Positions 1,019 to 3,989 of a DNA stretch of 64,000 nt are shown here, one piece after another (position 1 is the stretch's first letter; every line of letters starts with the position of its first letter). Below the pieces are notes generated by a model. The model saw only the letters and a list, made by a program, of their open reading frames with translations. It had not been told where the DNA came from and made no database searches. The position numbers and the translations under genes are program-made. The stretch is taken from the NCBI GenBank assembly GCA_017431145.1, contig JAFRLQ010000004.1:62001-126000 (forward strand), given 5' to 3'. The stretch comes from Clostridia bacterium. GTDB lineage: Bacteria; Bacillota; Clostridia; Christensenellales; Maliibacteriaceae.

Positions 1019-1459
1019 TTATTCAGACTTTTCAGTCTTGGTCGTTACATATTCCAGGATATCGCCGACATTGCCCTCAACTCTCGCGTTATATTCATCC
1101 CATTTTTCGGCGCTCCAAATCTCGACCCGGTTAAACGCACCGATCACGACAGCGTCTTTTTTCAATCCTGCATACTTTCTCAGCTCGACCGGGACACCGA
1201 TTCTACCCTGGCTGTCAAAATCACAAATCGTCATGTTCGCTGTAAACATTCGGATGTAATCCTGACCTTTTCTGTCTGTACGTGAAATCGCGTTGAACTG
1301 TTCTTCCAATTCTTTCATTTCCGTTCGGGGATAAACGTAAAGGCATTCTTCAATCCCGCGCATCAGCAGGAACTGATTGCCCAGTTCTTCTCTGTACCCT
1401 GCGGGAATAATGATTCTTCCCTTGGCGTCTAAAGAGTGCGTATAGGTACCAAAGAACAC
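1019..1459 (-). CDS. mraZ: Transcriptional regulator MraZ
   Basis: MraZ is a ring-forming DNA-binding protein that controls its own division and cell-wall operon. The 146-residue product has the two tandem SpoVT/AbrB-like halves, each with a DxxxR core: HSLDAKGRIIIP at about residue 8 and DFDSQGRIGVP at about residue 80. The start is GTG at 1457-1459, preceded by GGGAG. It is the first gene of a minus-strand operon with rsmH. The repeat ladder just upstream (1500-1559) looks like its own operator, so autoregulation is likely. Confidence 0.97.
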   Translation of the reverse strand: MFFGTYTHSLDAKGRIIIPAGYREELGNQFLLMRGIEECLYVYPRTEMKELEEQFNAISRTDRKGQDYIRMFTANMTICDFDSQGRIGVPVELRKYAGLKKDAVVIGAFNRVEIWSAEKWDEYNARVEGNVGDILEYVTTKTEKSE

Positions 1460-1499
1460 CTTTTAGTCTCTCCCTTCTCTTCGTATTTCACCTTACATT

Positions 1500-1559
1500 C
1501 ACCACTTTACACCACTACCCGCCACTTTTCAATACAATTCCCCACCAAATTTCACTTTT
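1500..1559 (-). promoter_or_regulatory. mraZ operator: ladder of 10-bp direct repeats
   Basis: Read on the minus strand, six contiguous decamers run into mraZ. Five of them carry GTG at the same place: AAAAGTGAAA, TTTGGTGGGG, AATTGTATTG (the odd one), AAAAGTGGCG, GGTAGTGGTG, TAAAGTGGTG. MraZ proteins are known to bind short GTG-containing direct repeats spaced one helical turn apart upstream of their own gene. Repeat unit, spacing and position all fit. A clear -10/-35 pair for mraZ could not be fixed within the ladder. Confidence 0.75.
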
Positions 1560-1744: not shown

Positions 1745-1870
1745 TTATCCACATTTTTTTCGCGTTTGCAGCGTTTTTTTCTCCAGTTATCCACTTTATC
1801 CACATAAAAAACATGTGTTTTCGAACAAAATTGTGGATAACGCCAATAACCGAACACAGGTTTATCCACT
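1745..1870. promoter_or_regulatory. Cluster of five DnaA boxes
   Basis: Three exact TTATCCACA nonamers are present: 1745-1753 (+), 1796-1804 (+) and 1832-1840 (-). Two one-mismatch copies (TTATCCACT) lie at 1787-1795 and 1862-1870. Boxes 2 and 3 abut without a gap. The stretch between boxes is T-rich. Such density is typical of an origin or of a DnaA-binding regulatory cluster. Neither dnaA nor dnaN is nearby, and the genes to the right mostly point toward this site, which argues against a conventional oriC. Together with the mraZ operator and the glycerophosphodiesterase promoter it fills the 551-base gap between genes. Confidence 0.85.
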
Positions 1871-2010: not shown

Positions 2011-2772
2011 ATGAGCAGTAATACCGAAATGAAGTGGATGCTTGCACGTCCGATCGCTCACCGCGGGCTTCATAACGCTTCCAATCCTGAAAACTCCATC
2101 GGCGCATTCTACGCCGGTATGCTGAAGGGATATAATCTGGAATTGGATGTACATTTAACGCAGGACAATGAGCTTGCTGTTGTTCACGATGAGAATCTGG
2201 AAAGAATGACAGGGCAGTCCGAACAGATCACTTCCTGCGAAAGAAAGAAATGGCGCAGTTTCAGTCTTCTCGGTACGTCTGAAGGGATTCCGACACTGGA
2301 CGAAGTACTGAAACTCGTAAACGGCCGCGTCGGCCTTATCATTGAGATCAAATCAGACAAGAGCGTTCCTCTCGGAAAACTCGAAGATATCCTGATTGAA
2401 AAACTGCGTGCCTATAAAGGGGACTTTGCGATTAAAAGCTTTGATCCGCGCATCGTCAAATATATCAGGAAGCACGCTCCGGAATTCATCTGCGGACAAC
2501 TCAGCTGGAGCTATAAGGACTATGCCGGTCTTTCGAAACTGACGCGTTTTTATCTGAGTCATCTCATGATGATTCCCTTCAATCACGCTCAGTTCATCTC
2601 CTACGATATCAATACCCTTCCCTGTGCTGCCGTCACAAAATACCGCAAGCGCGGACTCCCGGTTCTGGCTTGGACAATCTCCTCACCTGAACTGGCTGAA
2701 AAAGCCCGTGCACATTGTGACAACATTATTTTTGAAAAATGGGATCCCGATACCGTAGGTTTTAAATTGTAA
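2011..2772 (+). CDS. Glycerophosphodiester phosphodiesterase family protein
   Basis: This 253-residue protein belongs to the GDPD family (TIM barrel), which hydrolyses glycerophosphodiesters to glycerol-3-phosphate and an alcohol. The family's active-site residues are visible: HRG at 17-19, the metal ligands E44 and D46 in LELD, and the second catalytic histidine H59 in VVHD. IEIKSD and the late LAWT segment also match. There is no signal peptide, so a cytoplasmic enzyme is expected. It is the only plus-strand gene in this area and ends in a shared terminator with tsaD. AGGAGG lies 5 bases before the ATG. Confidence 0.92.
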   Translation: MSSNTEMKWMLARPIAHRGLHNASNPENSIGAFYAGMLKGYNLELDVHLTQDNELAVVHDENLERMTGQSEQITSCERKKWRSFSLLGTSEGIPTLDEVLKLVNGRVGLIIEIKSDKSVPLGKLEDILIEKLRAYKGDFAIKSFDPRIVKYIRKHAPEFICGQLSWSYKDYAGLSKLTRFYLSHLMMIPFNHAQFISYDINTLPCAAVTKYRKRGLPVLAWTISSPELAEKARAHCDNIIFEKWDPDTVGFKL

Positions 2773-2882: not shown

Positions 2883-3989
2883 TCACCATGAAATATCGAG
2901 AACCGCATAGGCATTCAAAGACATATCATGCAGTTTCCCGGCTCTTGCAGCATAGTATCCCGCCGCTCCGATCATTGCAGCATTATCTGTACAAAGAATT
3001 GGCGCCGGGACGCACAGGTCAAATCCTTCCGCTTTGCTCAGTTCCTGCATTCTGCCTCTCAGTGCACTGTTGGAAGCGACACCGCCGACGATGGCCAGTT
3101 TCCTGATACCTGTCTGTTCCATGGCCTTTAACGCTCTTTGAGACAGTGCTTTGATCACTGCGTGCTGAAAGCTTGCGGCGATATCTTCTCTGCTGTGTCC
3201 CCGTACCGATTCAACAAATCTGGCATTGGACTGTATCTGTGCGGTATTCTCTTTCAAACCGCTTTCGACGCTTTGGATCACAGCTGTTTTTAAGCCTGAA
3301 AAACTCATATCGAGCGGTGCATCCTTCACTTTTGCAACCGGATACCGGATCGCATTGGGATCGCCTGCCCGGGCGATTCTGTCTATCTCGGGACCGCCCG
3401 GATACGGAAGTCCCAGCACCCGTGCCACCTTATCGAATGCTTCGCCTGCTGAATCATCACGCGTTCTGCCGAGCCATCGGACAACATCATAGTCTTCAAC
3501 AATCGCTATATGAGAGTGTCCGCCTGAAATCACGAGCGCGATGAACGGCGGTTCCCAGTCTTTTCTTTGCAGATAAGACGCAGCGATATGCCCCTTGATA
3601 TGATGCACACCGACAAGCGGGATATTCCGCGATAAAGCCAGCGCCTTTCCGCAGGAAACTGCCGAGAGCAGCGGCCCGATCAGTCCCGGGCCGCAGGTCA
3701 CCGCAATAAGATCAATATCATCGAATGATACTTTTCCTTCTTCCAATGCCCTGTCCACGACATCATCCATGCTTTTCAAATGACTGCGCGCAGCAACCTC
3801 GGGAACGACTCCGCCAAATTTCCTGTGTTCCTCGATCTGGCTGTCTGCGCACATGGAAAGAATCTGCCGTCCGTTTCTTACTACTGCCGCCGCAGTATCA
3901 TCACAGGAAGACTCAAGCGCAAGCACTGTAATGTCCTTGCGCTCCATCATTTCATCTTTCCACTTTTCAATATTGCTCTGATACGGCAT
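2883..3989 (-). CDS. tsaD: tRNA threonylcarbamoyladenosine modification protein TsaD
   Basis: TsaD transfers the threonylcarbamoyl group to A37 of ANN-decoding tRNAs, working with TsaB and TsaE. The product (368 aa) has the ASKHA-fold signatures ALESSCDDT near the N-terminus, CGPGLIGPLL, and the metal-binding HHIKGH motif near residue 130, followed by a late ILCTDNAAMIG. The ATG overlaps the stop of the upstream membrane-protein gene (TAATG), suggesting translational coupling and adding about 15 residues before the conserved start. An internal Met just before ERKDITVLALESS is an alternative start. Confidence 0.96.
   Translation of the reverse strand: MPYQSNIEKWKDEMMERKDITVLALESSCDDTAAAVVRNGRQILSMCADSQIEEHRKFGGVVPEVAARSHLKSMDDVVDRALEEGKVSFDDIDLIAVTCGPGLIGPLLSAVSCGKALALSRNIPLVGVHHIKGHIAASYLQRKDWEPPFIALVISGGHSHIAIVEDYDVVRWLGRTRDDSAGEAFDKVARVLGLPYPGGPEIDRIARAGDPNAIRYPVAKVKDAPLDMSFSGLKTAVIQSVESGLKENTAQIQSNARFVESVRGHSREDIAASFQHAVIKALSQRALKAMEQTGIRKLAIVGGVASNSALRGRMQELSKAEGFDLCVPAPILCTDNAAMIGAAGYYAARAGKLHDMSLNAYAVLDISW

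Follow-up and report, generated by a model that had tools for sequence, protein, structure and literature searches.

The names gcp and tsaD denote the same gene, and the cluster of DnaA boxes associated with it in Bacillus subtilis is said to be one of six clusters that have been deleted from that genome. In vitro, the fourth-listed DnaA-binding region of B. subtilis lies downstream of gcp and ydiF, carries 10 sites and is bound with a Kd of 0.15 uM (PMC4447404). At 55 nM, 16-fold more DNA of the gcp region is obtained with ATP-DnaA than with ADP-DnaA (PMC4447404). Within the literature that could be searched, this is the sole paper found that joins DnaA, gcp and ydiF. Removing six clusters outside oriC leads to earlier initiation in B. 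subtilis (PMC13220808; PMC5295017), but according to a review (PMC5295017) none of the individual clusters has been found to play a significant part in initiation, a point that counts against reading such a cluster as a sink. The gcp cluster has so far been known from B. subtilis alone, and it belongs there to a set of clusters in which individual roles are difficult to discern.

Here, we analysed a window of 64,000 nucleotides from a Clostridia bacterium (positions 62001-126000 in a contig of 144 kb), in which five DnaA boxes adjoin a division operon. Our analysis indicates, with a probability of roughly two in three, that these boxes form a non-origin, tsaD (gcp)-linked cluster that titrates DnaA and holds back initiation, and that a rearrangement brought it beside mraZ.

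Results

Five DnaA boxes in the window

The preliminary description of this window reported five DnaA boxes in 126 bases, and we recover the same number, as three exact TTATCCACA and two TTATCCACT sites, two of which abut. From left to right, an exact box (1745..1753, plus strand) is spaced 42 bp from the next same-strand box, TTATCCACT (1787..1795, plus strand), which abuts an exact box (1796..1804, plus strand) to form a pair that also occurs in the tsaD cluster of a complete same-family genome (G002). An exact box in inverted orientation (1832..1840, minus strand) lies 36 bp from this pair, with 27 bases between, and the outermost box, TTATCCACT on the GDPD/tsaD side, occupies 1862..1870 (plus strand). 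Read along tsaD, the conserved core module at 1787..1840 is TTATCCACA-N27-TGTGGATAA-AGTGGATAA.

The whole window holds 18 box matches at one mismatch or fewer, compared with a mean of 10.2 and a largest value of 17 in 100 shuffles, and its only three exact boxes all fall within the 1745-1870 cluster. At the scale of the 2.38 Mb assembly, 5 of the 20 TTATCCACW sites lie inside the 126 bp of the cluster. Six simulated genomes of 2.38 Mb and the same dinucleotide make-up carried 17-35 such sites each, and never two within 126 bp. On the basis of the shuffles and simulated genomes, we reject a chance origin of the cluster. No Rfam match was obtained anywhere in the window at gathering scores, which was our search for an RNA element.

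The flanking genes are those previously named, with MraZ (PF02381) and RsmH (PF01795) on the left and a glycerophosphodiesterase (GDPD, PF03009) on the right. mraZ, the first gene of the division operon, occupies 1019..1459 on the minus strand, and the GDPD-family gene (2011..2772, plus strand) stands between the cluster and tsaD (2883..3989, minus strand; PF00814). The cluster sits about 1 kb from tsaD, which is farther than usual and counts against a tsaD-linked reading. The description of most genes to the right as lying on the minus strand holds for tsaD, lit, prfB and secA and agrees with the sign of the GC skew, but a plus-strand block at about 8.7-13.5 kb departs from it. An inverted repeat, AAAAGAAAACATC / GATGTTTTCTGTT (1944-1974), is found immediately upstream of a TATAAT that precedes the GDPD gene and is a possible operator.

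On the mraZ side, about 285 bp separate the start of the gene from the nearest box, whereas a promoter-like site and GTGG repeats spaced at about 10 bp (1480..1550, minus strand) lie within 100 bp of that start. MraZ binds its own promoter, and the GTGG repeats, which are common to G002, the same-genus genome G001 and a further relative (G003), probably serve MraZ autoregulation.

Position relative to the origin

The preliminary description had left room for an unusually placed origin and had named GC skew and the location of dnaA as checks. Every 4 kb step along the 144 kb contig shows a negative GC skew, and there is no minimum, turn or sign change at the cluster. The reported absence of dnaA and dnaN beside the site is correct, as both are on another contig (C30), away from the cluster and in the usual arrangement rsmG-parA-parB-dnaA-dnaN-recF-gyrB-gyrA (names from reading translations). 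Boxes lie upstream of dnaA on C30 (3633, 3675 and 3684), and the gap between dnaA and dnaN contains further near-boxes and a run, TAGTAAAAGTAGTAG, beside an AT-rich stretch, which we take to fit the DnaA-trio motif of B. subtilis. No such run adjoins the boxes of the window, where the sole run of three, AAAAAGAAA at 1943, is 70 bp off. Among complete relatives, for some of which genome lengths are rounded, tsaD lies at 18-72% (27 genomes) and mraZ at 45-84% (13 genomes) of the distance from dnaA to the opposite pole.

The cluster in relatives of the order

In the same-family genome G002, the module TTATCCACA-N26-TGTGGATAA-AGTGGATAA follows secA-prfB-lit-tsaD. Compared with positions 1840-1787 of the window, its letters, order and orientation are identical, and the spacing is 35 as against 36 in the window. 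Boxes also lie between tsaD and a cwlD-type amidase gene in four genomes representing three further families of the order (G036, G025, G050 and G027; the amidase of G036 is Amidase_3, PF01520), and three of these four show the 42 bp same-strand spacing of the boxes at 1745 and 1787 in the window. The exact letters, orientation and spacing are kept while the surrounding sequence changes.

The same-genus genome G001 has the order tsaD-GDPD-cwlD without boxes, including none between GDPD and cwlD, and there too a GDPD gene separates tsaD from cwlD. At the orthologous position, the cluster is present in the same-family genome and absent from the same-genus one, and the far neighbour differs from that in the window. 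The order spans 33 families in the sample of relatives. Of 89 genomes of the order, only 6 keep the cluster. This counts against a tsaD-linked reading, and it indicates that loss of the cluster has been common in the order.

Box clusters were also seen at other genes. They lie directly 3' of a response-regulator gene, which by reading presumably resembles spo0A, in G003 (L071:7267-7296) and G033 (L078:4523-4606), and a matching box pair is found in G055 (C1:2601587-2601616). G003, G033 and G055 have no cluster at tsaD, and the response-regulator boxes are possibly another gene-linked cluster in the order. DnaA boxes also occur between jag and mnmE (trmE), both in the window's own assembly (L081:2441-2494 on C49 and L080:13932-13985 on C48) and in G001 (L073:5282-5374).

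Breadth across the Bacillota

We scored a tsaD-linked cluster as at least two DnaA boxes, one of them exact, within 150 bp and no more than 1.5 kb downstream of tsaD, a definition that includes the cluster of the window. In a phylum sample whose genomes were drawn regardless of boxes, yet are not phylogenetically independent, 62 of 109 genomes, representing 41 of 69 families, carry such a cluster downstream of tsaD; the control regions, in or before tsaD, gave 0 of 109. The first exact box is within 300 bp of the tsaD stop in 57 of the 62 cluster-bearing genomes. Across the 109 loci, 166 exact boxes fall in 159 kb downstream of tsaD, compared with 11 in 275 kb of gene body and upstream sequence.

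The arrangement of the boxes recurs as well. Along tsaD, 147 exact boxes read TGTGGATAA and 13 are opposite. The abutting, 9 bp same-strand spacing is the commonest (34 cases; random mean 5.7, maximum 16), and an inverted box 35-36 bp before another was counted 8 times (random mean 0.7, maximum 4) and recurs in other families. In the window, four of the five boxes have the prevailing orientation and both recurrent spacings are present.

A separate set of named Clostridia and Negativicutes, chosen by TsaD similarity only, contains 20 exact boxes in the 111 kb that follow tsaD and 4 in the 610 kb making up the rest of the loci. Its cluster-bearing genomes include Thermovorax subterraneus, Alkaliphilus peptidifermentans and Sporomusa malonica. 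The literature that could be searched yielded no earlier report of such broad conservation of the cluster beyond B. subtilis.

mraZ and the history of the locus

The preliminary description favoured, besides titration, a DnaA control of mraZ-rsmH-ftsL that would link replication to division. A search of 60 relatives recovered MraZ in 54, and in the 29 relatives of the order that were read, including G001 and G002, no exact TTATCCACA lies near mraZ. Upstream of mraZ in the phylum sample, not one exact box occurs in 42 kb, and none of 29 genomes has a cluster there. A cluster linked to mraZ is rejected on account of its absence upstream of this gene in the 58 genomes read, and the far-side gene in both the same-genus and same-family genomes is a cwlD-type amidase gene, not mraZ; the proposed link is not supported by these comparisons.

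A close cwlD is missing from the assembly of the window's genome (best match E 7e-9), and mraZ stands in its place. In the simplest account, the association of the cluster with tsaD would be ancient, and the division operon with mraZ would have joined it in this lineage through a rearrangement that put these genes where relatives have the cwlD-type gene. On this account, the closeness of the cluster to division genes would be incidental.

The mraZ junction is seen in a draft assembly with strain variants. Both of its sides are most similar to one relative, G001, so that distant genomes are unlikely to have been merged into a chimera here. Contigs C48 and C49 of the same assembly (L080 and L081) carry two slightly different versions of rnpA-yidC-jag, indicating mixed strains in the source genome. 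Around base 64000 of contig C54, G+C is about 0.41-0.49 to the left of the cluster and mostly 0.49-0.55 to the right, a shift that falls near the inferred rearrangement point.

Discussion

Of the functions considered for this site, DnaA titration, already raised in the preliminary description, is the best supported, as the position, orientation and spacing of the boxes match those of tsaD-linked clusters across the phylum and the B. subtilis counterpart has high affinity (PMC4447404). From these features we infer that DnaA binds the cluster and that the cluster functions as a sink. DnaA, probably mainly ATP-DnaA, would bind cooperatively to the abutting and inverted boxes and to the boxes that flank them, and the cluster would hold it away from oriC and reduce the amount of free DnaA. 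Passage of the fork would double the cluster and enlarge the sink, such that initiation may be restrained or timed.

Since the boxes separate the divergently transcribed mraZ and GDPD genes, control of either gene is possible in this species, with DnaA acting as a transcription factor that couples replication status to division, and B. subtilis DnaA has been found in vivo at the ftsL promoter region (review PMC8203912). However, nothing conserved points to such control. Exact upstream boxes are lacking in the 29 order and 29 phylum genomes, the promoter-like site and GTGG repeats are much closer to mraZ than the nearest box, and G002 has the same module after tsaD, far from mraZ. In B. subtilis, two ftsL-operon proteins are unchanged in level upon initiation arrest (PMC11019786), and the transcription activity of DnaA has no major effect on division timing according to the review (PMC8203912). 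We consider this explanation unlikely. An unusually placed chromosomal origin might be suggested by five intergenic DnaA boxes, two of them abutting, but the contig-wide negative skew, the boxes on both sides of dnaA and the trio-like run on C30, the lack of a trio run adjoining the cluster, and the distance of tsaD and mraZ from dnaA in complete relatives contradict an oriC at the cluster; the site is almost certainly not an origin.

Rather than a passive sink, the boxes could be an active site that alters the nucleotide state of DnaA, either datA-like, through ATP hydrolysis, or DARS-like, through ADP release. Abutting boxes and an inverted box at a distance of 35-36 bp are found repeatedly in unrelated families, and this geometry exceeds the order needed by simple titration, which leaves room for an active nucleotide-state structure. 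No cluster of the phylum is known to us to have such an activity, which counts against this explanation. The preference of the B. subtilis gcp region for ATP-DnaA would fit it (16-fold at 55 nM; PMC4447404), but B. subtilis is without datA, DARS, Hda and IHF (PMC13220808), and we regard an active site as rather improbable. That the boxes are a functionless relic, arisen by chance or kept by shared descent, would agree with the loss of the cluster from most genomes of the order. It is very improbable given that two boxes within 126 bp never arose in simulation and that the letters, orientation and spacing have been kept unlike their surroundings.

A DnaA-box cluster at tsaD (gcp) was already known from B. 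subtilis; within the searchable literature, the breadth of its conservation appears to be new. The presence of such a cluster after tsaD in 41 of the 69 sampled families, its recurrent spacing and its absence from the rest of the tsaD surroundings make it a candidate general regulator of DnaA in the Bacillota. Tentatively, the tsaD-linked cluster may be an ancestral locus for the control of DnaA throughout the Bacillota, in which abutting boxes and an inverted box at 35-36 bp fix the nucleoprotein geometry. It would then be a functional counterpart of datA and DARS, under selection strong enough for it to persist through the exchange of its neighbours. The sampled genomes and their box layouts provide material for testing DnaA regulation in the phylum. 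For the window, we propose that the supposed link between replication and division be replaced by a replication-control site that happens to adjoin division genes.

The cluster of the window resembles several known systems in part. The bipartite oriC of Bacillota shares with it several TTATCCACA boxes, including an abutting pair, whereas the cluster lacks trios, a skew turn, dnaA and dnaN. The ftsL promoter region of B. subtilis is similar in having DnaA sites close to where the mraZ-rsmH-ftsL operon begins (PMC8203912), but the cluster would have come with the tsaD side and has no counterpart upstream of mraZ in the order and phylum samples. The datA, DARS1 and DARS2 sites of Escherichia coli, which act on DnaA availability, are likewise non-coding DnaA-box clusters outside oriC, unlike this one in their phylum, neighbours and layout. 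The gcp/ydiF region of B. subtilis differs from the cluster in that the latter has five boxes, an intervening GDPD gene and mraZ as its far neighbour. Both are dense, non-coding arrays of DnaA boxes that lie downstream of tsaD and off the origin.
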